A stretch of DNA of 64,000 bases from Phlegmacium glaucopus (Eukaryota > Basidiomycota > Agaricomycetes > Agaricales > Cortinariaceae). The notes under the pieces are model-generated. The model did no database searches and had not been told where the DNA came from. It saw nothing but the letters and a program-made list of their open reading frames with translations. A program made the position numbers and the translations under genes. The stretch is from assembly GCA_015039465.1 (NCBI GenBank), contig MU130357.1, forward strand, positions 407,721-471,720, given 5' to 3'. This document shows, in pieces, positions 2,656 through 45,760 of the stretch (the first letter of the stretch is position 1; each line of letters begins with the position of its first letter).

Positions 2656-5600
2656 ATGTCGACCACAACTCAAATTTTATTTAATTCTCCCGCATTACAC
2701 TCTCTTAAGCGCGACCAACTTGTCAAATTGTGCAAGATACACGCCATAAAGGCCAATGGCAAAAACGTGGACCTTATCCAACGGCTTCAGCAGCATGCAC
2801 AGACTTTGCCAAAGGATTCACCTCTGAGCATCGCTGCTCGTAGTGATAACCCTGAGGTACAACAGGAAGAGGAAGTTCGAGACGATGTATCATTTCGGAG
2901 CGCAATGCCTCGACCAAGTGAACAATGGGAGGTAGTTATGGATAGCATTGTAGAGGTTGAAGAAAACTCGGAAGGAACACTTTCCTCCCAACGCATAGTC
3001 AATAACAGTGGAACAACTGGCGAGTTCGGAACGGGCAGCTCCAGATGTGCGTATGGCGAATTATATAAAGAGTTTTCCGGTAATAACTTAGCTTTGTTTT
3101 ACAGCTACAACCGTAAGCTCGTCTATTAAAGCATTTGCCACCTCTTGGGGCCTCAAGCGAAACCCCATCAAACCTACACCATCATCGACTGCCTCATCCA
3201 GAATTAGTAATCATGTCGTTACAGAAGTCAGCGACGAACTAGCACGAAACTCAACACCTTACGCGTCTCTTCCCCCTCCCTCTTCGCCCCCTCAAACAGA
3301 TCACTTCGTACTAAACCCACCTCGGATGTCCTTGGACGGAGATGTAGAGATTCCTCTACCAGGACATGTCCTTCGACCAGGTATCCCAGCTCCAGCCAAT
3401 GCACGGCTCAGTCTAGGTTTGGGCCTAGGCGTACCTTCTACTCCAACTCGTCAAAGCCAGCCTACAACAACGATCAGGCTCATTTCAAATCCTTTCCCTA
3501 GTGTTAATTCCAGTTATGGCGCAGGCGAAAATGGAACTCCTCAACTCCAGCCTTTTAACACCACATTTGATCTGATCCTTGGAAGCCCCACACCCAGTGG
3601 CGTACTTGCATCCATGAGCACTTGGCCACCAAGAGACCCCGAAGATGATGTCCCAATGAAAGGCATCTATCCTACCCTAACAGCTGATGATCTTCCGCCT
3701 TCCCTTGTTTCTATAGGGAGTCCCCAGGCCAAGGCCGATCGACGGGAGAAAAATGAAGATGTCGCTATGCCAGGTTTGCTGACTCCCGCGCATGCACGCA
3801 CTTCTGTTCTCGGATCACCCGAACCCTTCATTTTCGGTTCTCCTCTTCCCCAACACAACGTCACTAATACCCAATTCCGTGTTGCCGCCGCCTCTGTTTT
3901 GGAAGAAATGAATAAACGCCTTCGTGAAGAAGGGGTTGACGAAATCCAAACCGACATCATCGCAAAGCTGCGGCCAGGTGCTAGTGTCCTCCATGGCACT
4001 CCAGATGGTAGAGAAATTAAGCCAATGCCAGGGGCGAAGAGAGGAGAAATTAAGGAGAAATTCCAGAAGTTACATGAAAGCGAGTTTGAGAGAATGGAGG
4101 GGATTGATGGATTGATGAAGAGAAGAACTGAACGGTCACCTCAAAAACGTGAAGAGAAGGAGAAGGTTGTTATTGGGAAGAAACGTAAATCCAATGCGAT
4201 TGAGAAGGGGAGCGTTGATGGGCTTGGACCACACAGACCGAGTGCGTTTGTTGGTAGAGCTAGCTCGACGAGGGTGATTAGTAACGGCCGACGCTCGAAA
4301 GTTGTCATTCCCGGTGCTTTTGGTTCCAAAGACGAAGAAGAGGATGAGGCAGAAGAAGACGCAAGGACTGGGAAACGCGTCAGGATGGATCCTGAGGTTC
4401 AATCATCGCTGTTAGGCGAAGGAGAGAAGAAAAGCGAGCAAGAAATCCGTTTGCAAAGGGAGAATGAGGCTATTCGGAAAAGATTAGAAGCAAATAGAGC
4501 TAGAAGACGCAGTAGTGCTGCTCACGGGGGTTTGCAAGGAAGGAAGAGTGGAAGGATAAGTTCGGGAAGACCAAGTCTTCTAGGTAAGACTACCTTTTTC
4601 TTTTCTTTCACTTCTGGCGCTGACTTTCATCATCAGGTAAACCTAAACCTAAGCCTTCTCGCTTTGGTTTTCTATCATCTGCCAAATCACTTGTTCAAAG
4701 CGTATGGAATCGTGGAAAGGCTCCTGCGCCTGTTGCCGCCAGCAATATCCCCAAGCCTTCGCCTGCGAATGCGAATGTCTCAACTAAACCTGCCCCCGCT
4801 CCTACTGCAAAGGCTAAAGTAGGTCCACCACCCCTTGGCCCTACAAAGAAGTCATCCATAGCACCTGCGCGCCCAACAACAGCCGTCGCCAGTGGTAGCA
4901 GGATTCCTTCTATGCGCAATGCTAATAATAAAGCAGATGGAAAATCAGAGGAAGAAGGCAAACTAGCTGTTCCTAACGGTAATGCTATTGGGAAAGGCAC
5001 CAACACCTCTACCTCGTCTTCTCGGTCTCGATCTAGGTCTCCGCTGCCTTCTTTTACTAGTACCTCTGCTTCAAGGAACAGTCTGCAAAGCAATGCTGGA
5101 ACACGCACAAGTCGTACAAGCTCTGTAGTTGGTGGACCTGCGTCGCGTAATAGCTCCCTTGTTGGAACAGGCATCTCAAGAAATTCTGGCAATACGGCGG
5201 GAGTGTCGTCGATCGGTACCCGGATTTCATCTACTAGGATGTCTTCCACAGGAGCTATCAGTAGTGTGGGTTCGAAGAAAGCCTTGGGGGGCGCTTCTGT
5301 TACTTCGAGGACTTCCTCTACTGGGTCGTCGAGATTGTCCTCGATGACTTCTCGACTCTTCGCGCCCACTGCTAGTTCACTAGCGAAGGGTAGTCGTCCT
5401 TCACCTGGAGGAGGGGGGCTAAAGGCCGTCTCTGAGGATCGACAACATCCCCCTCTAGGAATGATAACCAACAGTTCAGCTCTTCATTCCCCTGAGATCT
5501 CTTCTCCAAACTCGAGGCAGATTTTCAGCAAGCCTCTGTTATTACCTCAACAATCGGGTATACCTACCCCTGTGAAGAACCAAAGAATTGCTAGTAATGA

Positions 5601-8371: not shown

Positions 8372-10945
8372 GTAACACGTGGTAGGTTTTCTATATATTT
8401 GGTGGGTGTTAAAACAAAAGAATAAAGGATGAAGGGGTCATAATATGATCATATAAATAGATAGTGATAAAATAATAATTATAATAATAATAATAAGACA
8501 ACCACTCTGGTAAGTTTATAGACCAAATATATACAAAAGATCGTAGTCTAGGTTTCCCTGATTCCGACGGACTCCATCACTACGGTTTCAAGTCAAGTCA
8601 AGCCAAGAAGTTGGTAAAAACTTCTTGACTCTTGGTTTGACTACCCAGAGAGTGACTTGACTTGACCTTGACCTTGGCCAAGATAGCCAAGTCAGACCAA
8701 GATCTTGGCCAAGTTTGGCAGTTTGGTTACTTTTTTGGAATATTAAATATTAAAATTATACTACCCGGTGACCCTCATGAAATAAAATCAAATTATTCGA
8801 TGTTCATTAGATGATCGTTATTGTCATACTACTTTATGTTTTTTATCCAGTATGTTACGATTAAAGGTCCTGTCACAATAGCAAGTAAGTAATATATGGT
8901 ATGGAAGTCATCCATACGTAGTCCGCTCCCACTTAAAGGAAGGCCTACCCGATGCTGTCCGCCTTTGGCTTCACCTCTGAACCTCAAGTAGCCGTGAGAC
9001 TAGTTGTTCCTACTAATTCATCACTATCTATACTACTTGATTCAACTTACGAGTGTAATTGCAGTCGTCGACCTTATGAATGTCCTCGTTCTAGTAACTA
9101 GGGGCTTCACCTTTGGTTTCATCTCTCATCTAATACCCTCCGGACTAACTACTCCTACCAATTTACGAATTCCTACGCTACCCACTTCGACTTGTGAGTG
9201 TCATTACGGATGTAGAACTTGCGAGACGGTCGCTGAACTTATTGAACACACGAACGTCGGTGTCGTAAGCGTCCTTGCCTATCGTACCCTAGCCGCCACG
9301 AACAAAACTACCAGCTGTAGCTTCAACGACCAAGTCTCGAACTTAGGTCTCGTAGTAACTACCAGTCTACCTACTAAAGTACCACGTCCATCTTCAACTT
9401 CTACACCTTACCCACGAACCACATTAGCTTAGCTGTTCACTGCTGCCGAGGAGCTACCAGGGTCGCTTACTTCGCTCGCATACCTGGTTTTTAGTTGTAA
9501 CTCTTCTTTACCAAAGTTTTTCTGTACCTGTCCGACTGCGGACGTATCCGTCATTAGACCGGCGTACACACCTATGGTCTGAGCCACAACCAGAGTTACG
9601 AGCTCCTCCGCCTCCTACAACCATACAACCGGAGCAGTTCACGTTACAGAAGAAGAAGGACTCGGAGAAGGAGCGACCCACTATCATGTAAATGCAGGTA
9701 GACCAGGACTAGGAGAAGTAGGAGGAAGAGAAGAAGAAGAAGGAGGAGGAGGAGTGAGAACAGACGCAGGGACCCAAAGAGCAGACTATGTATCATCTTA
9801 CGTAGTACCGATGCCAGTTCGAACTTAAACACTACACAGACAACCGCATTCTTCAACCATACAAACAACAACCCGTGTAACTAAGCAATAACTATAAACG
9901 AGTAACAACAACAAACAAACAATAGTAAACAACAACAGGTAAACCGTAGAAACAAGCAGTAGTCAACGGACAGCATCAAATGTAATCTTTATTCAGTTTT
10001 GGATTTTTTCATGGAGTCTTCCGGGTTCCCCATCACGGTAGGTACAGACAATAGCAACACGATTGACAGTAACACTAATAACAACAACACGAATAACAAC
10101 AGTAGGGACACATTAAAGTATCAGTATAACATAATTAATTTAGTTCTTTGAATGGTTTTATTGAAGGGATCATCCCTCAACAACCACAATCGTAACAATC
10201 AACAAGCGTAACGCAGTCAACACAAAACAACTATCGACTCTCAGTTACTCTAAAAATTTTGAGGTTGAGGGTTTTATACCCAAGACCGCGAACAGACCGT
10301 GGATTGTTATAAAATATCTAATATTTAAGTTAAGACGCGTCTTTTTAATCTTTTTTTTAACTACCTTTCAAACCAAGTTTGGTCAAGTTTGACCAAGAGT
10401 TTTTAAATCTTTACACTCTTGGTTCTTGGCTTGGCTGTCGGGTTTTAGGGACCTGACTTGACTTGACTTGATCACTACCAGTTCCCATTGGGGCCCCACC
10501 TTAATCCGACTGGGAATGGGAATGGGAGGTTTTTGGGAATGGGAACCGACTCCCATTCCCAAAACCTCCCATTCCCATTCCCAAAGACTCCCCAACCTCC
10601 CATTCTTTGGGGTCGTCCCAAATCACGTTCCCAAACCAGGTTTAGGAAGGAGTTCGAAACATTAGGTTTCCTCGGAAGTTTCATCGATAATAAATTTTGT
10701 ACAAGTCCCACAATTTCCACAAATCGTTATCTAAAATTTACTTTATCTCTCCCAAACTGATCATAAAATTCGATGACTAACAACACTTTCGTCACTCCGG
10801 AGAAATCTAACGAAAAAGAGACTAAATTTCAGTTAAAATATCTATGTGTTGTCAATCTAGTGAGACTATAGTCTCTTTATTTTTAAGGGTTTTTATGGGA
10901 CTGGGGAGGTCCTCCCATTCCCAAAAAGTTCCCAGTTTTTTAGAC
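8372..10945. other. Mirrored segment A (reversed, not complemented)
   Basis: Read right to left without complementing, this stretch becomes normal fungal repeat and gene sequence. Positions about 8372-9477 are the plain reversal of 10,972-12,095. For example gagctaccagggtcgcttac at 9451-9470 is cattcgctgggaccatcgag (10,979-10,998) spelled backwards. Positions 8575-9477 correspond with no shift to 10,972-11,874; a few indels occur further out. Read backwards, 9,880-9,640 encodes an acidic region (runs of Glu/Asp) leading into the FunK1-like motif ARFIRWDHRGAVV. Backward 10,370-10,200 matches forward sequence near 32,400-32,500. Forward and reverse-complement ORFs here, including the Leu-rich one at 9644-9871, are meaningless. 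Confidence 0.85.
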
Positions 10946-10970
10946 AAAAAAAAAAAAAAAAAAAAAAAAA
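10946..10970. repeat. Poly-A run (25 A) at the edge of segment A
   Basis: A homopolymer that sits exactly where mirrored sequence stops and normal sequence resumes. A similar run lies inside mirrored segment C near 41,806. Confidence 0.7.
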
Positions 10971-11240
10971 TCTCGCTTCATTCGCTGGGACCATCGAGGA
11001 GCCGTCGTCACTTGTCGATTCGATTACACCAAGCACCCATTCCACATCTTCAACTTCTACCTGCACCATGAAATCATCCATCTGACCATCAATGATGCTC
11101 TGGATTCAAGCTCTGAACCAGCAACTTCGATGTCGACCATCAAAACAAGCACCGCCGATCCCATGCTATCCGTTCCTGCGAATGCTGTGGCTGCAAGCGC
11201 ACAAGTTATTCAAGTCGCTGGCAGAGCGTTCAAGATGTAG
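10971..11240 (+). pseudogene. FunK1-type fungal protein kinase fragment
   Basis: Correctly oriented sequence encodes RFIRWDHRGAVVTCRFDYTK, then an Ala-rich stretch ending VIQVAGRAFKM before a stop. The segment FIRWDxxGAVVTxxFDYT is a hallmark of the N-terminal region of basidiomycete FunK1 kinases. Upstream coding sequence exists only inside mirrored segment A. No kinase catalytic motifs follow before the repeats, so this is a fragment or a misassembled gene. Confidence 0.6.
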
Positions 11241-11669
11241 GCATTACTGTGAGTGTTCAGCTTCACCCATCGCATCCTTAAGCATTTAACCATCCTCATC
11301 AATCAGGCCTCCCATAATCTACTCTCTACTTTGGTTTCCACTTCGGGGATCAATGATCTTGCTCCTGTAAGTATTCCAGCTGCTGACGTTAAAGTGAGCA
11401 TTCAACTTAGTTCATTGTATCTATCACTACTTAATCATCCTTGTTGATCAGAGTGCCGATGAACTCCAAGTCTCCACTTCGGTTTCCGCCTGTCGTAGCC
11501 CATCCGGAAGGAAATTCACCCTCGCCTGATGCATACCTACTGAAGGTATGGTATATAATGAATGAACGATAACACTGTCCTGGAAATTAGCATTGTATGA
11601 CCTATTTTTTGTATTTCATCATACTGTTATTGCTAGTAGATTACTTGTAGCTTATTAAACTAAAATAAA
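11241..11669. other. Unassigned spacer
   Basis: Possibly downstream exons of the kinase-like fragment (Ser/Pro-rich short frames); no motif is recognised. The same stretch appears mirrored at about 8780-9208. Confidence 0.35.
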
Positions 11670-11873
11670 GTACTCCCAGTGGCCCATCATATTAAAATTA
11701 TAAATTATAAGGTTTTTTCATTGGTTTGACGGTTTGAACCGGTTCTAGAACCAGACTGAACCGATAGAACCGGTTCCAGTTCCAGTTCAGTTCAGTGAGA
11801 GACCCATCAGTTTGGTTCTCAGTTCTTCAAAAATGGTTGAAGAACCGAACTGAACTGAACTTTGGCATCACTA
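11670..11873. repeat. GAACCGGTTC-word element
   Basis: A near full-length copy in the same orientation as 33,495-33,751: ggtttgaaccggttctagaa on the left, TTTGGCATCACTA on the right. Its plain reversal is what makes the TCAAGTCAAG words at 8575-8720. Confidence 0.75.
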
Positions 11874-12561
11874 CCTCAGGCAGCCTTAGTCCCTTTGGAT
11901 CTGATGCTAGAAAACATATATAAACCAGATATTTGAATGGTCTCACCAAGGTCTCACACAACAGAATAATAATAATAATAATAAAATAGTGATACATAAA
12001 TATACTAGTACATATATAATACTGGGGAAGTAGGAAATAAGAAAACAAAATTGTGGGTGGTTTATATATCTTTTGGATGGCGCACAGACCATTGGTCACA
12101 TGATCACAGATAAGCATGATTTCAAGCATATGGTGCTGGGTCAGGGTAGATTACATAAATTCCAAAAGGGGAAATTTTTTAAAGATGGTAGAGAATTGTT
12201 TTAGGACCCTGAATGTTACAAATTCTATTTTCTTTTTCTTTAACTCAACCAAACACGATGCTGTTTCACCTACACACATTATGCATACTCTTTTCATTTC
12301 TGTTTACATATGTTTACCTTGCCCTTTTCATCGTTTCATCCACATGCATATGACTCATTGCATGAGTCACCTTTATTTTTACCTACGACTCACTCTTTAC
12401 ATGTGGACAACTCATACCTATGCATAACTCATTTACTTACTATAAATACCGTATTTACTCCAGATGTATTCTCTAGCTAGTTCTTGAGAATTGTACCCAC
12501 TTTACTCTCTGATCTTTCTCAAACTCCTAAGACAATTCCTTGAGACGATTCTCTTGGTATT

Positions 12562-21200: not shown

Positions 21201-21389
21201 ATTGAGAAAGGGCTATATTAAACAAACTTAAGTCCAAATTTGAGTTATATCATTTAGAGTTGCCTTTCTTAGATGATAGCTAAATATAAATACTGTGTGC
21301 CTGCCAAGACTATATTTTTATATTTGTTTGTATTTGAGGCCATAAAATTATATAATTGAACTCTAAACATAGAAATTGATAGTGTTTAA

Positions 21390-21950
21390 AAGTCTGGTCC
21401 AGTCTGGTTTTTTGACCCTCAGGAGTCAGGGCCTTTAACCGAGACTGTAACTGGTCCACTTCAGTCCTAGGACCTCAAAAGACCGGACTGGACTGCTTCA
21501 GACCAGTTTACATTGGTTTTTTTCAGTCCTAGCTGGTCCTGGTCCTAACTGGTCTTAATCAGTCTGTAACTGGTCTTCTGCTCACAAATATATATTTTTG
21601 TAATCAAAATAGTTGTTCAGTTTAATAATAGCTTCCAAACGAGCCCAAGAACGTTAACTTCCGTTAAGATTTGGATTTTCTACAGTAATATTATTAAAAT
21701 GCCTTATTTTAGTGAATATTTTAGAATATTTTACAGATCTATTTATTTCTCAGCCAGTTCTTATCAGATTTTTATGCTTGTTGGCTTGTTGGAAAGGGGT
21801 AAATTAGGGCTACCCTTTTGCAAGTTTAAACCGGTCTAAACCACAAAAGACCGGTTAGTCAAGACTGGTCTTTTTCTGGTCTTTTTCTGGTCTAGTCCAG
21901 TCTGGTTACGGTCTTTTTCTGGTCTCGTAACTGGACCTTCAAACACTAGA
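21390..21950. repeat. Paired GACTGGTCT-word blocks
   Basis: Blocks at about 21,390-21,575 and 21,825-21,945 are packed with GACTGGTC / GACCGGTCT / CTGGTCTTTTT words, separated by unrelated AT-rich sequence. This is the same architecture as the other word-rich MITE-like elements, with a different word. Confidence 0.55.
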
Positions 21951-22189
21951 AACTGAGCCAAATAGAAGGTCATACTTTTTCAAAAGTACACACGTGTGGA
22001 ACAGTGGGCAAATTGCCTCCCTGATATATACCTTCTCATGGGCAACTGCCCAGTTTTGATACATGATTCTAGCTTATAAGGCTGGCCACCAAGTGATTGA
22101 AGATCTGGTGGATATTAGAAAAATTCTGTGGTTATAGAAAGGATACTCACAGGAGTGAGGAAACATGATCTCACTTCCTCCATAGTACT

Positions 22190-24157: not shown

Positions 24158-24345
24158 CTTTACAGTGCCCCATGCTTCTGAGTGGAATCCAAGTGGAATC
24201 CAAGCAATCCAGGTGGATTCCAAGCAGAGTCTGAGTGGAGTCTGAGTGGAATCTGAGCAATCTGAGCGGACTCCAAGCAGAGTCTGAGTAGAGTCCAAGT
24301 AGAGTCCATTCGGAGTCTGCTTGTGTTAGGGGACACTCATTGTGT
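24158..24345. mobile_element. MITE remnant, GAGTGGAATCCAAG words
   Basis: The left end agtactttacagtgccccat matches the 24,501 element. The interior has about ten degenerate copies of TCCAAGCAGAGTCTGAGTGG. The right terminus (tgtgttaggggacac) is degenerate. Confidence 0.6.
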
Positions 24346-24500
24346 CCACCTCTAGGTACGCTTAGTATTACTTACTTTCACTTTCACTCTATGATAGTAT
24401 TACATACCGTGTTCCCCTTCCATTGTTGTAGTAGTTGACCCTTTGCTGATGACATCATACCGATGTCAGTATCTATTCTTGGTATCTACCTCACCGTGTA

Positions 24501-24910
24501 CTTTACAGTCCCCCACATTGTCCGGCCAGAGTCCGGTCAGAGTCCGGTGAAAGTAGAAAAATGCCTGGACTGTATGTCTGGTCACAGTCTGCCGGACTTT
24601 TGATAGAATTTAGGGTTATATTTAGATTTAGAGGTTAGGCTTAGGGTTATATTTAGATTTAGGGCTTAGGCCTAGGGCTTAGGATTAATATTTAGGGATG
24701 GGGATATTTTCTGTCCACACAGTAGCGCATTCTTAGGTTAGGAGGGGATACAGGCATGTTTTGTACTTCTACCGGACTTCCACCGGACTCTGACCGGACT
24801 CTGACCGGACTTTTCTGGAGTCCAGCGGAAGTCCGGCAGAGTCCGGTCAGTCCGGTGGAGTCTGGTCAGTCCGGCGGAATTCCGGCCGGACAATGTGGGG
24901 GAGTGTAAAG
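24501..24910. mobile_element. MITE, GTCCGG words, 410 bp
   Basis: Left end CTTTACAGTCCCCCACATTG and right end CAATGTGGGGGAGTGTAAAG are nearly perfect inverted repeats. Inside the left end are three GTCCGG-containing words; inside the right end are about ten ACCGGACTC / AGTCCGG words. The centre is TTAGGGTT-like and AT-rich. No ORF. A TA dinucleotide sits left of the element. Confidence 0.8.
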
Positions 24911-25363
24911 TCCTCACCTCACCCTACCTTCTATTATGTACTAGCTGTATATAGTTGTATTAGCTCCCATGCTTTGTAGTATATAGGTGTAAGGTGCTTA
25001 TTGAAGATAAGCACCTTAGAATTCAACTTAATTCCCAGTGATACAGTGTAAATGTGTATAGGCATGGATATGCACATTTTTCTGGAAATACCAATTATAT
25101 TAATGTAATCTGGCACAGAGTGGTGACTACACCAGTTGATTAAACAGAAATTGTAATGAAAGGTTCACAGCATAAGGCTGGAGATATATTATGGTGTGAA
25201 TTCACCTAATTGTCACACTGTCTAATAATTGAACTTCCTGGCTAAAACCACAAATATCCATGACAGCTATCAGGGAATACATTACAATATTATGTAAATA
25301 TTAAGTCTACACTACAAGGGGATTTATCTGGTGCATCTGGAGCTATGTCTAAAGGTAGAAGAC

Positions 25364-28297: not shown

Positions 28298-28667
28298 NNN
28301 NNNNNNNNNNNNNNNNNNNNNNNNNNNNNNNNNNNNNNNNNNNNNNNNNNNNNNNNNNNNNNNNNNNNNNNNNNNNNNNNNNNNNNNNNNNNNNNNNNNN
28401 NNNNNNNNNNNNNNNNNNNNNNNNNNNNNNNNNNNNNNNNNNNNNNNNNNNNNNNNNNNNNNNNNNNNNNNNNNNNNNNNNNNNNNNNNNNNNNNNNNNN
28501 NNNNNNNNNNNNNNNNNNNNNNNNNNNNNNNNNNNNNNNNNNNNNNNNNNNNNNNNNNNNNNNNNNNNNNNNNNNNNNNNNNNNNNNNNNNNNNNNNNNN
28601 NNNNNNNNNNNNNNNNNNNNNNNNNNNNNNNNNNNNNNNNNNNNNNNNNNNNNNNNNNNNNNNNNNN
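28298..28667. other. Scaffold gap, 370 N
   Basis: Undetermined bases. By symmetry with block X the missing sequence should be largely the reverse complement of about 26,956-27,404. Confidence 1.
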
Positions 28668-29082
28668 GCTCTTCTTTTCTTGTTACCTTTTCTTTTTCCT
28701 TGTCATTTTATTAGACATTTCACAGTTTCACGCTCTCTTTTCTTTCCTTCCGTCACATGTATCAGGTTATCGTTTTTATATAGCTGAGGTATCCGCACAC
28801 CAGTACAGTTTTTATACTTTCCAGGACTCAGTTGTGAACTTTCCGCGTCGGAACAAGGGCTCTTTTATGATGAACGGGTACTAGGGTACAGCGCGACAGC
28901 GCGTGGTTATGACTAACCATCGCACTCTTCTTTCGAATTTTCAGCGGTAGTACTTTTATTCGCCTGAAACTTAAACGAATGGATAAAACCTTCGCCGGGA
29001 CTTAGCGCAAGGACCAGTTGTTTTGGTAAGCAAGTTGCTATTGTAGGAGTAGCGAGTAGTATAGGAGTTACAGAACAGCTGT
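28668..29082. other. Mirrored segment B (complement without reversal)
   Basis: Directly right of the N gap. Its bases are the plain complement, in the same direction, of 28,028-28,255 followed by about 26,784-26,955. For example acatttcacagtttcacgct (28,715-28,734) is the complement of tgtaaagtgtcaaagtgcga (28,075-28,094), at a constant offset of 640. If the segment is string-reversed in place it becomes the correct reverse complement and runs without a break into 29,083. From there on the sequence is a normal inverted copy of 28,027 leftwards. Confidence 0.88.
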
Positions 29083-30046: not shown

Positions 30047-31535
30047 GGAATCAAGAGAGCGGAAGAGGTCTGGGTTTAGCCGGATAGCTCATGTGGAAAT
30101 CAGCAACAAGTTCGGATGCATGTCATAATTCATTAGCTGGTAACCAGGAAGTTTCTTCATCAGTACCTTCATAGCCAGACCACTTGACTAGGTACAGAAT
30201 TTTGCATATGCGCCGTCTGTTGTCCAATTTAGAGTCCAAAATTTCAGAAACCTTGAATTCCTGTTCTCCATCAATGACAACCGGAGGAGGCAGAGGTTGA
30301 GTACAATCCGGAATAGTGTTCGGAATGGAGGGCTCTAGCATGGGAACATGGAAAATGGGATGGATGGCACACAAGTTGTCAGGAAGACGGAGGGTCCAGG
30401 ACAAAGGACCTGCCTGAGCAATAATCTCATATGGACCAAGATACTTCTCGGAAAGCTTCTTTGAAGGTCTGGTCATACAGAAGAATTGTGCTCTGACAAA
30501 GGCTTGATCTCCAACCTTGAAGTCCAGAGGAGGAATCTGACGCTTGTCCGCAGAACATTGGTATTGTTCCTGGGAGGTAAGGATAGCTTTTCGGAGTTCC
30601 TCGTGGAGTTTGTTAAGGTCTGTAACATACTTGTGAGCATGGGAGGAGATGAGGTTGTACTCCAGATGGATAGTGATAGCCAGATTGTAGCCTTTGTTAG
30701 TGAAGAACAGAGATACACTGGTAGTGGCACTCGGAGTATTGTTGTAGGAGAATTCCGCTAACGGAAGAAGTGAACTCCAGTTACCTTGCTGATAATTGCA
30801 GTAGATGTGGATATATTGTTCCAAGGTCTGGTTGACGTGTTCCATTTGTCCGTCACCTTCCAGGTGGTATCCGGAGGTGAAGTGCAGCTTCATGTCGAGG
30901 GCTTTTCTGAGGGATCTGAAGAAGTGAGATACAAACTTGGAACCGTGATCAGAAGTTACATGGGACAGAACACTGTGCTTGGAAAACACGTGGATGACAA
31001 ATAGTTCAGCAAGTTGAGCAGAAGTGATGGTGTCGTATGTGGGGATGAAAATGGATTGTTTCATGAACCAGTCTACTACGACTAAGACCACAGTGAAACC
31101 TTCAGAGTCTGGAAGGTGTTCAATGAAATCCATGGAGATGGAGTCCCAGGGACAGGATGGAACAGGAAGTTGTTGGAGTAAGCTGTATGGTTTATGATGT
31201 TTGGCTTTGGACCAAGAACAGGTGGTGCAAGTCCTACAATAATCAGTGACAAAAACACAAATACTAGGCCAAGTATACTCTCAACGGATAACCGCAAGAG
31301 TCCTATTGACACCAAAATGTCCAGAGACAGGATGGTCATGATAATAACGAAGGACACGGAGACAAAGATCTCTGGAATCTGGAACATAGATCCATTGATC
31401 AATCTGGACGAATCCGGAAGAGTCCTTTGACCATCTAACATACTTTGGATTATTGATATCCAATAAGTAGGACTGTGCAAGGGGATCCGTGGAAAGAGCG
31501 GAAAGAATCCCCTTGTTGAGCTCTTCAACATCCAT
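30047..31535 (-). pseudogene. Gypsy (chromovirus-type) integrase-chromodomain, decayed
   Basis: Reading leftwards: an HHCC zinc-binding region (HDHPVSGHFG... CRTCTTC), then the integrase core, then a C-terminal chromodomain. The core acids are all retained: D in VVVDWFMKQ, D in TSDHGSKF, E in GQMEHVNQTLEQ. The GPY/F-like stretch KYLGPYEI precedes the chromodomain, VSEILDSK...YLVKWSGYEGTDEETSW. Two in-frame TGA codons (after RTLAVIR and after WLPANEL) sit where the family normally has an amino acid, probably CGA changed to TGA. Reverse transcriptase and RNase H are missing. The 5' side is truncated near 31,540. No matching LTR pair in the right orientation brackets it. Confidence 0.82.
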
Positions 31536-31539
31536 GGTA

Positions 31540-32389: not shown

Positions 32390-33470
32390 AACTTTCTGTA
32401 AATATTTTTTGCTAATTTTTCTGCTGAGAATTAACCTTAAAATCTATAAAATAATGTTCTTAGGCACCAGACCTGATGTTTTGGGAGTCGGAGTTTGAAA
32501 AATCTCATTGCTTGCAAATCACTTCAGAAAACACAAGCAACAACAATGTGACCAATACTGATGATGGACAACACCAATGACAAGAACAAGCACAATGACG
32601 AGCACAACAGTGCACCCTTGGAAGGTAGTTTTTAAAATTAAAATTAAATCTAATTGTACTTAAACTACAACAGACACATGACAACATTTCTTAATTTATG
32701 AAACATCCCCAGGCAGCTGAGAAAAACACATACCAGGTGTAAAGTGGGGCAATAAACAGGTGAAAGATCAAGTATGGAAGATGGGTAATGAAGCTATGCA
32801 AGTTAGTGAATGCCGAAATTCATCCTTCCATCATATACTCACAAAATTTTATGGCAGATGTTGCTATGATAGCTTGTATTCTGTGCAAACAGTATGTGAT
32901 CCATAAAAAAAACTTGAAATATGCTGAACAAGTAATCAACAAATAAACAACGATGAACAAGTGACAAGTGAATCACAACAAATGAATGAATGACAAATGG
33001 TTGACAAACAAATGACAAACAAATGAATGATGGCTTAGGAGTGTCATAAGCGACATCATGGGCCAAGGTACGCCAGCTGTGCCTCATAGTAAAACATGTC
33101 ATTTTCTAAATATACTGAACAAGTAATCTAGGTACCAACTGTACAATGACAACAAATGAACAATGATGAATGAATGAATGAACAAACAATGATGAGCATT
33201 ACCCTCCCTGGAGGTATGTTTTTTAATTCTAACTTAATTCTAATGTAAACTAATACAACAGACAAATGAGAACCGACAAATGATGCCAACCGACAACAAC
33301 AAACAAACAACAAGTGAATGACAACAAGTGAATGGACAACAAATGGATGGACCACCAACAAATGGACAACAAATGAGCAGATGATGAGTGGATGATGAAT
33401 GGATGATGAACAAAACAGATGACAACTTAAGAGGAGCAAATGGTGTTGAATGAGTACAATGGATGAATGG
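32390..33470. repeat. Low-complexity AATG/ACAA region
   Basis: Two related units, each with a cttggaaggtagttttt or ccctggaggtatgtttttt edge (about 32,615 and 33,208), followed by long degenerate (AATG)n / (ACAA)n tracts. Part of it corresponds to the backward reading of 10,200-10,370 and 9,880-9,960. Non-coding. Confidence 0.5.
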
Positions 33471-33494
33471 CCTACCCGTTTAGACACCAACCAC

Positions 33495-33751
33495 GACCCA
33501 CTTAGTAGTTTAGTTTATTAGGCTACAGTAATAATGTGATGATGAATAAATATGAATTACCCTTGGCAATGGGGTATTTTTTATTGGTTCATCGGTTTGA
33601 ACCAGTTCTAGAACCGAACAGAACCGACAGAACTGGTTCTTTTGGTTCTGGTTCTGGTTCTGGTTCAGTTCAGCCAGGAACCTTTTGGTTCGGTTCTCGG
33701 TTCTCCAAAAATAGTTGAAGAACCAAACTGAACCAAACATTGGTAACACTA
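33495..33751. repeat. GAACCGGTTC-word element
   Basis: An inverted counterpart of 13,589-13,817, running from gacccacttagtagtttagt to ACATTGGTAACACTA. It inserted directly next to a fragment of the SAP gene (33,755). Confidence 0.75.
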
Positions 33752-33754
33752 GTT

Positions 33755-33813
33755 GGATAAGGTCCACATTTTTGCCACTGGCTTTTATGGCGTGCAATTT
33801 GACAAGTTGGTTG
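33755..33813 (-). pseudogene. Fragment of the SAP-domain gene
   Basis: The minus strand reads accaacttgtcaaattg, then cacgccataaa, then gtggaccttatccaac. This is the SAP helix region of 2,715-2,780 with a 9-bp internal deletion and a few substitutions. It encodes QLVKLHAIKASGKNVDLIQ. It is bounded by the GAACC element on one side and the Copia LTR on the other. Confidence 0.8.
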
Positions 33814-34083
33814 TGTTGACTTATACCAGGGGTCAGGTCATCTATCATCTCACGTGATACTCCTTTTTGTTTATCAGTCACATTTTCCCTTTCTTGTTCC
33901 TCAGTTGTCAACTACTACTTCCCGACACTGAGGACGTATGTTATTCTCTGTCTACTATGATAAATGTGTATCTAACTCATATCCTAGTACGCTCTTCGCG
34001 TTCTAGGTAAATACATTAGTTGTCAACTACTACTTCCCAACACTGAGGACTACGCTCTTCACGTTCTAGATCCACGATCTACA
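33814..34083 (+). mobile_element. Copia 5' LTR (inferred), about 270 bp
   Basis: Starts TGTTGACTTATA, the same 12 bases that follow the polypurine tract at 48,104, and ends ...ATCTACA before a tRNA-type primer site. Inside it gttgtcaactactacttccc and the ctcttcgcgttctag segment each occur twice. The 3' LTR no longer matches beyond 12 bp, so the end is inferred from the PBS. Confidence 0.55.
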
Positions 34084-34097
34084 GGTTATGGGCCCCG
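34084..34097 (+). other. Putative primer-binding site (initiator tRNA-Met half)
   Basis: ggttatgggcccc follows the LTR end directly. It is complementary to the anticodon region (GGGCYCATAACC) of initiator tRNA-Met, a half-tRNA primer known for several Copia elements. Confidence 0.5.
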
Positions 34098-34267
34098 GTC
34101 GGCTGTGACCTAGACCTTAGAGACATTTTCGGGAACAATAACTCAAAAAAATTTCTGTTTCTTATAGTCCATTCAATTTTCAAGTGCACTTTTAATTGTC
34201 CTCATCACACCTGGAATTATCAAACATGCAATTTCTGCACAAATCTTTGTGCATATAGTCGGCAAGA

Positions 34268-37760: not shown

Positions 37761-37835
37761 CTTGGTATACCTTGTTCATTATCACCTCGACCTTTCCCTG
37801 ATCCATCTCCCTCTCCTCAACCTATCCACAACCAA

Positions 37836-39319
37836 GTGCAGACCTTAGCTGGGCGCAATTTTACTGAAGTACTCCGCTTGAAGAAATCTCAAGCAGAAGA
37901 ACATTTGAAACAGAGAATGGCGCAAACAGGGGATATTACTCAGAATGGGGGTGATGCTGATGTGGAATTGGGAAGAAATCATGATGGGGGTGCAGCTTTA
38001 TATGTCAATAACGATGTGGTCATTTCTGATGCAAACATTCCTGCAAATGAAGGTTTTGTGCCTATCGGAATGGGTGATCTCAACCCCAACAATGGTACTA
38101 TTATTGACTACATCTCTTTCCTCACATCTTCCAACTTCTCCCATCAAGTTGATACTGAGTCTTTGGATTTGATGGAGGCTGTAGCCCTGCATTCCATTAC
38201 TCATTTCCACCTCAACAAGATTCCATTGACTTACTCTGAAGCTACTACACATCCTGATGCTCCGGTATGGATCGCAGCAATGGCAAGGGAACATCAGAGT
38301 TTAGATGACATGGGAGCTTTTGTCGAAGAGGACTTGCCAAAGGGTGAATGCACCATAGGGCTGAAGTGGGTCTATGATCAGAAGACTGATGTCAATGGTT
38401 CACTCATAAAAGGGAAGGAGAAAGCACACTTGGTAGCCCAAGGATTTAATCAATGTCCTGGGCAATACGATGAGATGTATGCACCTATTGCTAAGATGGT
38501 GAGCATCCGCGTTCTTCTTGCTTGGGCAGCTGTCCACAACTTAGAAATTTTCCAATTCAACTGCAAAACGGCTTTTCTTCATGCCAAGCTGCGTCATCCC
38601 ATCTACGCTCGACCATTTCCCGGTTATACATCCTCTCATCTGGGAAAGGTTCTCCGTTTACTTGTTACCCTTTATGGACTTCAACAATCTGCCTACGAGT
38701 TCTACATCCTCTTTATGTCACTTCTTTGTGATTTGGGAATGGTCCAATGCGATGTTGATCATGGGGTTTTCTATGGCAAATGGTTATTGCCACCAGATCC
38801 TTCCATTGCAGCACCTACAGATGGAAAACCATTGGTTCTGTATGTTCCTATCCACGTCAACAATGGTCTCACGATTACCAATTCCCTGTCCTTATACCAA
38901 TGGTTTCTTATCACCCTATCCAAATGTCTATTGATAGTGGACTTGGGACCTTGTTCTAAATTTCTTAGTATCATCATTATCCAGGATCGCTTGAACCGTC
39001 ACCTATGGCTATCATCACATGTCTACGTCAACACATTGTTGGACGAATGGAATATGCTACTTTGCAAACCTGCCTTGACACTTTTTCCTTATAAAATCAC
39101 TGAAATGCTGCCAGCTCCGCCGAACTCACTCCCTGACATTACCAACAAAGAACTTATACCGAAATATCAACGACTCATTGGATGTCTGTTGTACCTTGCC
39201 ATCTCCACTCATCCTGATATTTCACACTATGCAATGTGGCTTGGCCAGTTCAACTCAAAACCCACTCATTTCCACTTCCTTGCTGCCAAGCACATATTAC
39301 GCTATTTGACCGGTACCAA
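37836..39319 (+). pseudogene. Copia reverse transcriptase with altered active site
   Basis: A long open frame with Copia RT landmarks: WIAAMAREHQSLDDMGAF, IGLKWVYDQKTDVNG, KAHLVAQGFNQCPGQYDEMY, then TLYGLQQSAYEF. The first catalytic motif reads FQFNCKTAFLHAKL, where the family has FQxDVKTAFL. The YVDD box reads HVNN (in VPIHVNNGLTIT). All three catalytic aspartates have therefore become asparagine. Enzymatic activity is not expected although the frame is open. It continues to ILRYLTGT, where the Plavaka-type element is inserted. Confidence 0.85.
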
Positions 39320-39735
39320 CATCAGGAAAACGGCAGATGCCTACATAGGCTACATAGACCTATGTAGGTCCAATGGCAGGTTAGGCAACCCCCTACTATA
39401 TAGGTAGCCACAGGCATTTCACCGACTATATAGGTCATGTTAGATATCATTATGCTTCCATAGGATTTGTCTGTTAGGCAAATTAGGCAGTATAGATATC
39501 CATAGGATCGTCTCTTAGGCAAGTTAGGATCAGTCTCTTAGGCAAATTCGGCAGTATAGATATCCATAGGATCGTCTGTTAGGCAAGTTAGGATCAGTCT
39601 CTTAGGCAAATTCGGCAGTATAGGTATCTGTATTTGTAATTAGGATGTAATTAGGACATGCAGCTGGGGTATAATTTCCGTATAAATATGAATCTAATTA
39701 AATAGCTGCAGTGTGATTAACGGTGCTGGTGATTA

Positions 39736-40018
39736 TTAGTACTGATTCTCGTCATCCGAAAGCACCAGACCCTCCCATTCCTGTTTCGCAGCTTCAATAT
39801 CGGCATCTGAAATGTTTGTGACTTGAGGGGCTCCTTCATCCGAAACTTTTGCATGTTTTCTATACAGAGAAACAAGTCAGCCAAATATTTATAATACCAT
39901 TAATACACATACCGAGCAGCCTTCAACATATGTCTGAGGAGACGAGGAATGATGTCGGCCTCTTGCGTTTTCTTCTCAAAATTCATGATGCGTTTGAGGT
40001 GGATATGGTATTTGGTCT
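39736..40018 (-). CDS. Plavaka-associated ORF, C-terminal exons
   Basis: Minus strand, stop at 39,736. The last exon, 39,736-39,859, ends EWEGLVLSDDENQY. The intron 39,860-39,912 (GTATGT...ATAG) is consensus. The preceding exon from 39,913 carries YHIHLKRIMNFEKKTQEADI. The rest lies in mirrored segment C. The plain complement of 44,393-44,928 reads KRALEDAVRSEQRLEEINGF then NGRTLVHRTQNAENEIPFVQ, and joins in frame once the mirror is undone. It appears to be a charged, helical accessory protein of the transposon. No known domain is recognised. Confidence 0.6.
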
Positions 40019-43000
40019 TGTCACCTCCGATGACGTAGCTTTAGACCGGCAGTCGCGTTTAACTACTTATTTGTTGTTGTTGAATCATACAAAAGAAAAA
40101 CAAAACCAAGGGAATGAATAAACCCGGGAGCACGATCAGAGGTTGGTTTTACTCTTTCTTCTCCACCGTTTTTTTGCCCGGGAACTTCTACGACAAGCAA
40201 GTCTCGTCGCTAATCTCCTTTAGTTACCAAAAGCGTTCTCCTTGGTTGGTCCATTACACGTAAACTGAATGGTAAAAAGGTAAAGACTGGAAAGATAAGC
40301 GTTGAGGGTCACCTACTGTTGTTGTTGAAACCCGGTCTTAGACTTCTACTGCTGCTGCTTGGTCAAAGATCATCACTATACCAAACAAAACAAAAACAAA
40401 TTGACTTCTTTATGATTACGGAAAGTCCGGAAAAGCTCACACTGGTAGGGAGGATAATAGTTCTGCTGACAAGCGTTACCGGCGTGGAACCAAGTGGCGT
40501 GAGTCTTACGTCTCTTGCTCTAGGGAAAACACGTCATGAGGGCTAGACATTCATTTCTAAGATATACACATAAACGGAAAAAACACTGGATAATAATATT
40601 AGTCGTGCGGCAAAGTCGAGGTCCCGGCGGTTTCTGGGAACAAGCTGCAAGGTAGTCATTGTTGAGTAGTGGTAGAATAGGAAGGTACCAGAGAGCGGTC
40701 GGACTCCCACTAGCCGTTGAAGAACCATGAGGTCAGGTTCATGCTATACCTGTTCCACTATCCTGTAAAGTGGACAGTTCAGGGGTTCAGCTTCTTCCTC
40801 AACTTTCATTCATGGAGGGCCAGAGGAAAATAATAATAATAATAAGTAAGTATGTTAAAAGCGTCACTCGCTGCTACTTCAGTTGGGGAGACGGTAGTGC
40901 ATGGGGTTCGTAGAACAGACAGCAAGGGACCTACGGGTGGGTCGGTAGCTTTGGAGGGTCGGACACCGATAAGTGTTTGCATTCCTATGGGACTGTTGAT
41001 GGAGACGACTATGCTGTTAACAGTGGTTTGCCTAGTTCCAGCTTCCGTCACCGAGAGCACCAGCGTAAGCGTGTCGTCTGAAACTACTCAACTGTGCTAG
41101 GTAGTAACTTCTTTGTTAGAGTTATATAGCACGCGTCTAACCACCACAACTTGGGAAGGGCCTTGCACGACTACTGGCGTTATGCCACTTCGTACGTACC
41201 CAACTTCAAACATGACCAGCGTTAGAAGCTCAGCTCGAACTTCTTCTATAAAAGTTCAACCATGCACTTATATCATTTATTTAGAAAGAAAGCACTATTT
41301 CTGAGGAAGAACGTCTAGTAATCAGCACGAAGGGTTCGGGCTCCGATGCGGTTTTGGTATAGATCTGGTATGAAGTAGAGACGAAAGTTATAGTTGTCGG
41401 TTCCGAGTTTCGCACGTTAAGCCCTACGGTGACTTGTTGAAAACCTCCTTCGTGCCAAATAAATGTTCCAGAAGATACTGGGTAAATGACAACATAGTGA
41501 CGATTGGTAGATACCTATCCTAAGACACAACTTCTGACCGTATAAGGCACGGGGTAACTAGGTTTGAGAATAGTTATTTTAGACCAAGTTCTTGTTTCTC
41601 CTGCTGCCCCAATAGGTGGGACTCAAAAGGCTCCTGTTGTACGAAGGCTACCGATGGTAACGTAAACATGTCTGACACCACTTAAAAAAAATAACGCTCA
41701 CTAGTTCACTAGTACCAATGGTAAAGATTAAAAGAAGTCTAGCTTTTGTTGGAGCTACTCACCCATTGACCCCTCGTATAACTACAGGGGAAGTGGCGAT
41801 GCCGAAAAAAAAAAAAAAAAAAAAAAAAAAAGCAACAGTCACAGGTTCGGTTCCAACGGTAGCCTATATTCTAGTTCGCGTCACTACATTAGTTCCATGT
41901 GAGATTTAGCCCGTTGGCGGAGAACGGAAGGGTTGGTGTGACAGTAAACCGCTTGTATGAGGAAAAACAACGAGCGAGCCATGCGAAGGAAGCGTATCAG
42001 TTACACATCAGCGAGACCTCTGAGTCACAACTTAGGTAGTCCACTCGGTGCCCTAACTTACCGGCTTTACATTACCAAGTAACGCACTTAAAATCCTTAT
42101 AACTTTACGAGTGCCTAAGGGAGTAAGTGCTTGTGTAGGAATAAAAGCACCTTCCAAAGTTCCCGAAAAACCTCTGCAAAGTCCCAGACACTCCACACAT
42201 GAACATCAACGCTTATTATCTACTTCAGTTACTGGCGTTGTCGACACGCTTCCTGACGCCCAACTTGACGGGGTTACTCTTCTGGCCGTTTTTAGGAAAC
42301 GTAAAGGAATACGAGCGCTGGGCAGGTAACGCTTTGTTTGCTCTATGGTAAAAACTTCACAGCCTCCGGACCCATAGGACCGTATGATGTTTTAGCACGC
42401 AGTTAAAGCAGAAGAGGACGATAAACTTCTGTGGTTAATTGTTCTACTAGAAACTTCTGAGGAAATACTTCGACTACCTCCTATAGCCCTCACTTTGTCC
42501 ATTTTTACAGCCATACACCCTCCAGGCGGGTCTTACCTAATATCTGCCGAGATTACGGAAGAAAACATTTCCGTGGTTGTGCAGCGGGTGAAAGAAACAC
42601 AACTTCTTAATGGAAGCATGCAAGAACAAGAGCAAAACCCTTAACTCGATTGAGAGGGGCGAGTAATCCATCTCGAGATGTGAGACCTGTTATCGAAAGG
42701 AACGTTGTCCGATGGTTTGTAACGAGTCCTTTTAGCCGTTGTATTCGTCGTTCTTACCCTTTGTAGGCCGCTTACATAGGTAGTCGCGTCCATTACAGTT
42801 GAGGTACGAAGGGTCGCTACTATTAACCCGACTCATTAGCTGCGTATGTTATCACTTTATCCGCTATAGCGACCTGGCTCGCCCAAAGTAGACACTTCAA
42901 CAGCTCAAAACGGTGTCCTTCTATCGGTTATTCATGTCATCGTACACGACAACCGAAGGCAGCATACCGGAAACGCTGTAAGGGCTAACAGTCCATCTGT

Positions 43001-44928
43001 CCGGTCCGCGAGAATAGTGGGGCTTTAACCCTATCAACCCAGAACAGTCTACTATCTTATTCCCCCGTGTGACAGCTTGGTTAACCATTAAAAAAGAAAC
43101 TATTCTATAGGTAATCGAGTTCAGGTTTAATGTCCTCCTGTTTAAGTGGACTCATAGGGTGGTGGTTAGACGTCAGGTGTAGAGTGGTTTGTATGCTAAT
43201 AATGGGAGGAATAGGCATTTTACCGCAAGGCCACACATAAAGTTCTTTAGGAAGTCTTAACCTAACGGGTAATTGAGGAAGTGCGTAAGGTGTCCTAGAG
43301 CGGCGGTCTCAAGGTTTGCAAGACCTCCGTACTCAAGAGGTAGGAGCAACTCAACCAAAGGCCCTCTACAGTGTTATAGTGTACAGGTAGGGTGGGGAAC
43401 GCAACCTTCAAGTAGCTAGAAAGGGTTCTTCGAAGCCAATGACAGTATCCATCCGACACAGGCAGAAACACAGATGTACCTAATTAACCTCTACAGTTAG
43501 TCTTCCTAGCTACTCTTAGTTGCTTTAAGAGTGTTACCCTTCGAAATTCTTTCGTAGACAAACGAAAACTGGTTGCAATACTTAGTCGGTGAGGCGTTCG
43601 GGGGTAAGGAGGAGCAAAAGTTTACCTGGGGTCGCTCTTGGAGGCGGGAGAAAGTCGACCAGTACCTCTCTGAGTTTTTAACCGAACCTTAGGGGGGTAC
43701 ATCGTGGGCGGGCTATGAGGAAACCCTTAAGAAGTTGTATCTCAAGGAGTAGTGACAGAAGTAGTAGCCCTCGTAGGAGTTGTCAGCGTACTACCCTCGC
43801 ACCAACACCAAGTTAAACACGACCACGTCCACCATCCAACTGAAGAAGTGGAAGTTCGTACCGAAGTCGTTAGACTTATAGAAGAAGATCTACTTATAGT
43901 CCGTTTAGTCCGACTTAACCTGAACCACCGCCGACACCTGGAGGCTATAACCCTAAAAGACCATACAGCAGGGTATATGATAAGCGTATAACTGGTTTGA
44001 GGAGTACTCTTCGGAAAGACGTTAGTCCTCATAACAGTTACACAGAAAAGTCTGGACCCTGGCATCCCGTGTTAAATGGCGTTTTTGGTGTCATTCCGTA
44101 CGACTTCTTGCATTCGTATAAAGAAAGGTCAAATTGGGGAGATGGCCAGAATCGGTGTCCACTAGGCTCGTGGTGGCACAAAGTTACCACGGTATACTTT
44201 GTAAATAACTTGCTTTAAAATCGTGACGGTGTATAAAGAGGATGAATTGTTAGGTCGTTTTATAGAGATGAATAAAGTTGAAGCGAAGAAAGTGAAAGAA
44301 AATAAGTGAGAGAAAATGGAGAGAAAATGGAGTCATCGACCTTTACGGGGGCTTTTTTTGGCATCGACGGGGGCGATGGTCGTTTTGAGGTGGTCACCTC
44401 CGATGACGTAGCTTTAGACCGGCAGTCGCGTTTAACTGCTTATTTGTTGTTGTTGAATCATACAAAAGAAAAACAAAACCAAGGGAATGAATAAACCCGG
44501 GAGTACGATCAGAGGTTGGTTTTACTCTTTCTTCTCCACCGTTTTTTTGTCCGGGAACTTCTACGACAAGCAAGTCTCGTCGCTAATCTCCTTTAGTTAC
44601 CAAAAGCGTTCTCCTTGGTTGGTCCATTACACGTAAACTGAATGGTAAAAAGGTAAAGACTGGAAAGATAAGCGTTGAGGGTCACCTACTGTTGCTGTTG
44701 AAACCCGGTCTTAGACTTCTACTGCTGCTGCTTGGTCAAAGATCATCACTATACCAAACAAAACAAAAACAAATTGACTTCTTTATGATTACGGAAAGTC
44801 CGGAAAAGCTCACACTGGTAGGGAGGATAATAGTTCTGCTGACAAGCGTTACCGGCGTGGAACCAAGTGGCGTGAGTCTTACGTCTCTTGCTCTAGGGAA
44901 AACACGTCATGAGGGCTAGACATTCATT
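40019..44928. other. Mirrored segment C: Plavaka transposase spelled backwards
   Basis: Read right to left without complementing, this stretch is coding. From about 44,000 down to 43,740 it gives IWDDIPENPNIGGPQPPPSP and then RSHHATVEDAPDDEDSDEEL. From 43,320 down to 43,263 it gives LELWRRDPVECVKELMGNP, a hallmark of Plavaka transposases. The plain complement left to right gives the accessory ORF. The first 527 bp (40,019-40,547) are a near-identical direct duplicate of 44,393-44,920. Dropping the left copy and reversing the rest in place connects both to the accessory exons on the left and to the transposase C-terminus on the right. All forward or reverse-complement ORFs in this interval are spurious. 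Confidence 0.87.
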
Positions 44929-45760
44929 ATCACGAAGACAACGAGGAGGAGACACTGGAAGACGCAATGCCCAGTGCATCCACCCATTCCATCTCTGTCA
45001 AGCCGGCCTTCCCACACACAGATGTCAATACTCTCTCCACCCGTTTCAAAGCTGCCAATTTCATTCCCACTCTTTCAACTTATATTCATCACCTTGTTCC
45101 TCCTCCTGCCCTTCCTGTTCTTCCCAATCTCATCGATCAATTTGACCTTTACACGCGGGTCACAATTCTTCAACCTCCAAACACAATGGGCGGATTTCCA
45201 AAGTCTGTGGATCGAGTTCGCGCAACACCTTCAGTTCCAGCCAAGGGGAGATTTAAGGCGGTACCCGCACATTTTGATACCGTACTCATACACGCAGGGG
45301 ATTCTAACAATAATCAACATACCAAAGGGACTTGCTTAGAAGGTGAGTAGTTGATTAATCTGCCCAGCATCACTCGTTAATCATTATATTTAATATGGTT
45401 GCCTCAGGACTTCGTGTTGCTCAGCTACGGGCAATTTTTTCACTTCCAGAGCACCTACAGCACCCTCATTTGCCCATCCAACTTGCATATATTGAATGGT
45501 TTACACCATTTCGCGCTCCACATGCCGATTCCGGCTTCTTTCCTCTTACTCGTGCTTCTCAAAACAATGGCCTTGTCGCTGAGATTATACCACTTGATCG
45601 CATTGTTTCCAGCTGTCATCTTATGCCTAGATATGGGACAAAGTATCATCCTGCCAAGTGGGACAGTGACACCGTGCTGGAGGAGTGCAATTCTTTCTTT
45701 TTGAACAAGTACATATCCATACAGACTTTCTTTGACCTTGAGCAGCATTTACATGTGTAG
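44929..45760 (+). CDS. Plavaka transposase, C-terminal part
   Basis: Two exons in normal orientation: 44,929-45,342 and 45,408-45,760, with the intron GTGAGT...CTCAG in phase 1. The protein runs HEDNEEETLEDAMPS ... LPNLIDQFDLYTRVTILQPP ... RVRATPSVPAKGRF ... AHFDTVLIHAG | LRVAQLRAIFSLP ... YIEWFTPF ... IVSSCHLMPRYG. It ends LEQHLHV. This FDLY-VTIL / VRATP / AHFD / LRVAQxRxIF / YIEWFTP / CHL-P series is the conserved C-terminal region of agaricomycete Plavaka-type proteins. The catalytic core is upstream, inside mirrored segment C. Confidence 0.75.

Follow-up and report, generated by a model that had tools for sequence, protein, structure and literature searches.

Why does a 4.9-kb stretch, flanked on both sides by recognizable parts of a transposon, make sense only when its letters are read from right to left? 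The stretch lies in the window analyzed here, a segment of 64,000 nucleotides (G000:C125:407,721-471,720) of a 60.5-Mb assembly of 259 contigs, in which it is present letter for letter. The initial annotation described a single block of a Plavaka-type transposon, written backwards without complementing, which recombination could not have produced and for which gap filling, misassembly or a deliberate edit might be responsible. As described below, our analysis agrees with a gap-filling error and with the exclusion of recombination, and it replaces the single block with two separate extensions.

The mirrored segment at 40-45 kb

Neither strand of the printed sequence at 40,019-44,928 codes sensibly, as had been claimed: in six frames, the longest stop-free stretch is at most 110 aa. 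A six-frame reading of the string-reversed sequence yields a stop-free frame of 491 aa. Of five peptides taken from the reversed sequence, two match the Pfam family PF18759, with E values of 1.4e-96 (profile positions 103-325) and 7.8e-28 (profile positions 1-100), which bears out the right-to-left reading as a Plavaka transposase; no Pfam family was matched by the other three in the same search. The proposed check, i.e. translation of the reversed string followed by a protein search, thus recovers PF18759, and the best database protein shows 90% identity to the 430-aa reversed-reading query with 97% of the query covered. At the nucleotide level, blastn gives 31 alignments of the reversed segment to 30 Plavaka loci of the same genome and zero alignments of the printed segment to the same 30 loci.

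A measure that is independent of coding leads to the same reading. The 5-mer score compares each word with its mirror, negative values indicating reversed sequence, and within the window it picks out 40,031-44,905 as most strongly reversed, with a sum of -530. The dinucleotides are also swapped as expected, the observed/expected ratio being 0.61 for AT in the printed segment and 0.68 for TA in a sample of the genome. Because reading frames, Pfam, blastn and the coding-independent score all favor the reversed reading, the mirror relation at 40,020-44,928 is confirmed as real. The right edge stands as annotated at 44,928, and the left edge is corrected from 40,019 to 40,020.

Judged from its sequence, the un-reversed element appears to be an ordinary Plavaka transposon without biological novelty. 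It carries the PF18759 domain and, in the two-piece arrangement described below, a divergent accessory gene in the gene order of L032, a relative from the same assembly; the printed sequence, in contrast, is not readable as an element. The suggested search for an un-reversed copy elsewhere in the assembly found none among the 98 of 387 candidates that were scored, the best own-genome relative in that set being 74% identical in protein across residues 5-353 of 430.

Piecewise reversal and a hidden overlap

The geometry of the site is best described from left to right. The left flank (39,740-40,019, minus strand) holds the correctly written 3' end of the Plavaka accessory gene, as judged by tblastn to L032. 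It is followed by a string-reversed extension of this flank, piece A (1785 nt, 40,020-41,804), which has a negative 5-mer score and becomes collinear with L032 only when it is reversed alone and in place; once un-reversed, its part of the accessory gene lies on the minus strand. A run of 27 A on the plus strand (41,805-41,831), which we interpret as a linker of 25 A with two adjoining A, forms the junction to the second reversed piece. This piece B (3097 nt, 41,832-44,928) extends the right flank in string-reversed form and contains the N-terminus and the centre of the transposase, with PF18759 matched after reversal. The right flank (44,929-45,757, plus strand) carries the correctly written C-terminus of the transposase, where tblastn matches P0127 and P0122 at 44,934-45,757.

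In L032, the accessory gene comes first, in reverse orientation, and the transposase second. The left flank, A, B and the right flank are collinear with this order once A and B have each been reversed where they lie, and a single tblastn alignment then passes from B into the right-flank sequence. No coding-frame alignment crosses the junction between the left flank and A, where the two alignments end 18 bases apart and L032 has 22 bases; this join is less exact than that of B with the right flank.

The two pieces also share sequence. The outer 536 nt of reversed A (40,020-40,555) and the outer 536 nt of reversed B (44,393-44,928) are identical at 532 of 536 positions. A is therefore the extension of the left contig and B that of the right contig, their overlap of 536 nt being left unjoined. 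Since this overlap, printed reversed, falls at the outer edges of the two pieces, the outer limits of the direct repeats coincide exactly with those of the reversed stretch.

This arrangement bears on the possibility that an assembly error reversed the 4.9 kb as a single block. Such a block would indeed carry the transposase, and the initial annotation held that its reversal in place connects both sides. The connection holds piece by piece; when the block is reversed as a whole, however, accessory sequence (reverse complement of L032, about 520-1380) comes to lie within the transposase, between its centre (to 4817) and its C-terminus, and both the A27 run and the edge repeats are left without explanation. 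Whole-block reversal is not collinear with L032 and was rejected on this ground, which makes this origin very improbable.

Gap marks in the window and across the assembly

The same signature is found at two further sites of the window. At the second site, the left flank up to 8,375 matches the locus L019 up to 2383, and its string-reversed extension (2570 nt, 8,376-10,945) spans the gap and continues for 1.1 kb into right-flank sequence. Read from right to left, 10,946 to 10,471 correspond to L019 2403-2879 with 99.2% identity and continue the match of the left flank, about 19 bases of L019 being absent at the junction. Further along the same reading, 9,477 to 8,375 correspond to 10,972-12,086 (97.9% over 1115 nt). 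Having spanned the gap, the reversed extension thus repeats 1.1 kb that is printed behind an A25 linker (10,946-10,970, plus strand).

The third site retains a gap of 370 N (28,298-28,667), after which the right flank is extended by 408 nt of string-reversed sequence (28,668-29,075). When this piece is reversed, it aligns together with the flank across the junction in all five copies tried (L014, L024, L042 in un-reversed form, L064 and L067, picked from the all-against-all matches); in the printed order, the alignment is confined to the flank and begins with its first base or the base before it. The alignments across the junction take in the 228 nt adjoining the flank, and the outer 180 nt align only out of line, in L024 and L064. 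Altogether, 7,860 of the 64,000 bases in the window (12.3%) are letter-reversed. Weak negative scores (-50 to -63) also occur at window positions 24,279-24,992, 33,470-34,121, 21,378-22,001 and 2,173-2,616, none of which has a gap mark; these four stretches may be repeats or chance.

The linker itself can be traced through the assembly by counting runs of A preceded by another base, on the printed strand and on the other strand of the 60.5 Mb. The printed strand has 298 runs with 25 or more A, against 14 on the other strand; for exactly 25 A the counts are 157 and 1, and for exactly 24 A they are 0 and 1. The control lengths are nearly balanced, at 35 versus 28 for exactly 15 A and 21 versus 24 for exactly 16 A. 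A real feature of DNA should be symmetric between strands, unlike a 25-base linker that software writes into oriented scaffolds. The A25 runs are probably such a linker, and the excess of about 284 runs of at least 25 A (298 - 14) points to the same fault assembly-wide.

To place these runs beside the mirrored sequence, we refer to the 5-mer score of their 500-nt flanks at 23 loci with at least 25 A, two in the window and 21 elsewhere, chosen non-randomly. A negative score was obtained at 15 of the 23 loci and in 20 of the 46 flanks, versus none of 12 control flanks from six loci with 15-base runs (Fisher P 0.005); random 500-nt stretches of the training sequence score negative in 3.4% of cases. 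Three of the 15 positives, i.e. the two window sites and L017, had been suspected beforehand, and without them 12 of 20 loci and 16 of 40 flanks are negative. Both flanks are negative at the A25-26 runs of L042 (C3:48158), L044, L071 and L073, as at the 40-45 kb site. Eight of the 23 loci have no negative flank (L034, L045, L064, L065, L066, L068, L074 and L076). At L045, 1103 N lie close to the run.

The flank score can err, and three flanks serve as cautions. The right flank of L046, scored negative, is probably correctly written; that of L044, also negative, is a 99-nt tandem repeat; and L047, a T44 run on the other strand that was left out of the 23-locus count, has one of its two flanks negative at -19.3. 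Two stretches that score as reversed found no further support and are not counted: L024:3-925, which reads as tandem repeats and has no reversed match listed in the all-against-all search described below, and L028:3043-3504, likewise with no reversed match listed there.

An all-against-all search of 47 records (236,808 bases, after L001 and 23 overlapping poly-A loci had been dropped) found, in sequence flanking A25-26 runs, long matches that are obtained only once one partner has been reversed: L042 1-1223 with L027 (99.1%), L067 397-1091 with L046 (99.4%) and L017 1118-1504 with L015 (99.5%), the choice of the reversed partner in each pair relying on score and gap mark. When 240 proteins were compared with the 47 records by tblastn, coding sequence readable only in reverse was found in two of them, at 41,887-44,091 of the window and at L017 785-1503. 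Among the 23 loci, the two window sites and L070 (57 nt) are the only ones with a clear reversed overlap inside the locus.

These recurrences also bear on a deliberate edit or planted test of the window, which the initial annotation had kept open. The letters are indeed mirrored exactly, a result beyond any natural process; the assembly nevertheless carries the identical segment unchanged, and the signature returns at two more sites of the window and elsewhere in the assembly, so that an edit of the 40-45 kb site is very unlikely. A biological origin of the mirror by recombination, a palindrome or template switching can be dismissed as practically nil, because inversion of DNA reverse-complements and polymerases copy antiparallel, a real feature of DNA should lack the one-strand A25 excess, and no evidence in its favor was found. 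The earlier argument against recombination is accordingly upheld, the letters being reversed without complementing. An ordinary inversion misassembly resembles the present case in that sequence at a repeat faces the wrong way, but it reverse-complements that sequence, whereas the segment here is not complemented.

A probable origin: reversed extensions from a gap filler

That the mirrored sequence is a gap-filling artefact and not a biological feature is well supported, the signature recurring at all three gap marks in the window and at other places in the assembly. With a probability of roughly 95%, we consider that a gap filler with PBJelly-like flank extension wrote its extensions reversed and uncomplemented. 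A long-read gap filler would have extended the contigs on both sides of scaffold gaps and placed each extension correctly, yet in reversed letter order and without complementing. The overlap of such extensions would go unseen, and closable gaps would be kept as overfilled gaps of the minimum size of 25 bases; backwards extensions would thus themselves create overfilled gaps. Presumably, these minimum-size gaps appear here as 25 A, and the linker may have been written after the scaffolds had been oriented. Applied to the window, this sequence of events would mean that both flanks of the Plavaka element were extended at 40-45 kb, that the left flank alone was extended at 8-11 kb and overfilled its gap, and that the right flank was extended at 28-29 kb with 370 N remaining.

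The sites share several properties with overfilled gaps. Contig extensions meet without a recognized overlap, and the gap is 25 bases long, as indicated by the run lengths (157:1 for exactly A25, 0:1 for A24); PBJelly is said to write its overfilled gaps as 25 bases. The gap is printed as A at two of the window sites and as N at the third. By its published description, PBJelly treats 25 or more N as a gap and incorporates flank-extending reads where a gap is too large for assembly across it, an overfilled gap being one whose extensions lack an identifiable overlap yet are longer than the gap was predicted to be (English et al. 2012, PMC3504050). A later paper distinguishes gaps extended on one side, extended on both sides, bridged and overfilled (PMC7757076). 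The likeness therefore covers one- or two-sided flank extensions, unrecognized overlap and the threshold of 25 N. The differences are the string-reversed extensions and a linker of A instead of N, neither of which is in the accessible part of the PBJelly description. In a large Joint Genome Institute study, ALLPATHS-LG was followed by patching with PBJelly for hybrid fungal assemblies (PMC7550596). No report of a reversed gap-fill fault was found in a literature search of titles and the beginnings of abstracts, and it is absent from the accessible parts of PMC4580222, PMC8081667 and PMC8848313.

The tool class would seem to be PBJelly-like, with A25 standing for N25 and the reversal preceding the test for overlap. 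In a variant of this explanation, which we consider less likely than not, the extensions were reversed afterwards by a separate script, e.g. in a re-orientation or N-replacement step: the replacement of N25 by A25 would suggest that a later step touched the gaps, but the overlaps of 536 and 1115 nt remain unmerged, which fits a reversal that came before the overlap test.

Letter-reversed sequence disrupts genes, conceals transposons and inflates an assembly with false unique DNA, and the reversed pieces may be recoverable by in-place reversal, one by one. The strand asymmetry of A25 runs, together with the forward/reversed k-mer score, can be used to screen the quality of other assemblies. We tentatively raise the possibility that a software fault in the hybrid workflow, i.e. 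short-read scaffolding followed by long-read patching, has left string-reversed extensions in many public genomes. If so, they would escape homology searches and could be detected by a one-strand A25 excess and the forward/reversed k-mer score.

Some minor features were observed along with these results. L046 contains a 34-nt direct repeat (1467-1500 and 1533-1566, 97%) with one copy abutting A25, resembling an overlap that was left unmerged, with its letters in the normal order. For the ORF at 3,092-4,819 of the window, the best matches among named sequences come from Crassisporium, Laccaria and Pholiota, at 56-58%, and unnamed ones reach 77%. L068 has a perfect inverted repeat of 191 nt (1266-1456 and 2811-3001), of which one arm abuts A25 and the second lies at the end of the examined stretch. 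Several transposable elements are present in the window, among them an open reading frame with an RVT_2 reverse transcriptase at 37,761-39,404, which we take to be of the Copia type, and one with an integrase and a chromodomain at 30,063-31,538, presumably of the Gypsy type.
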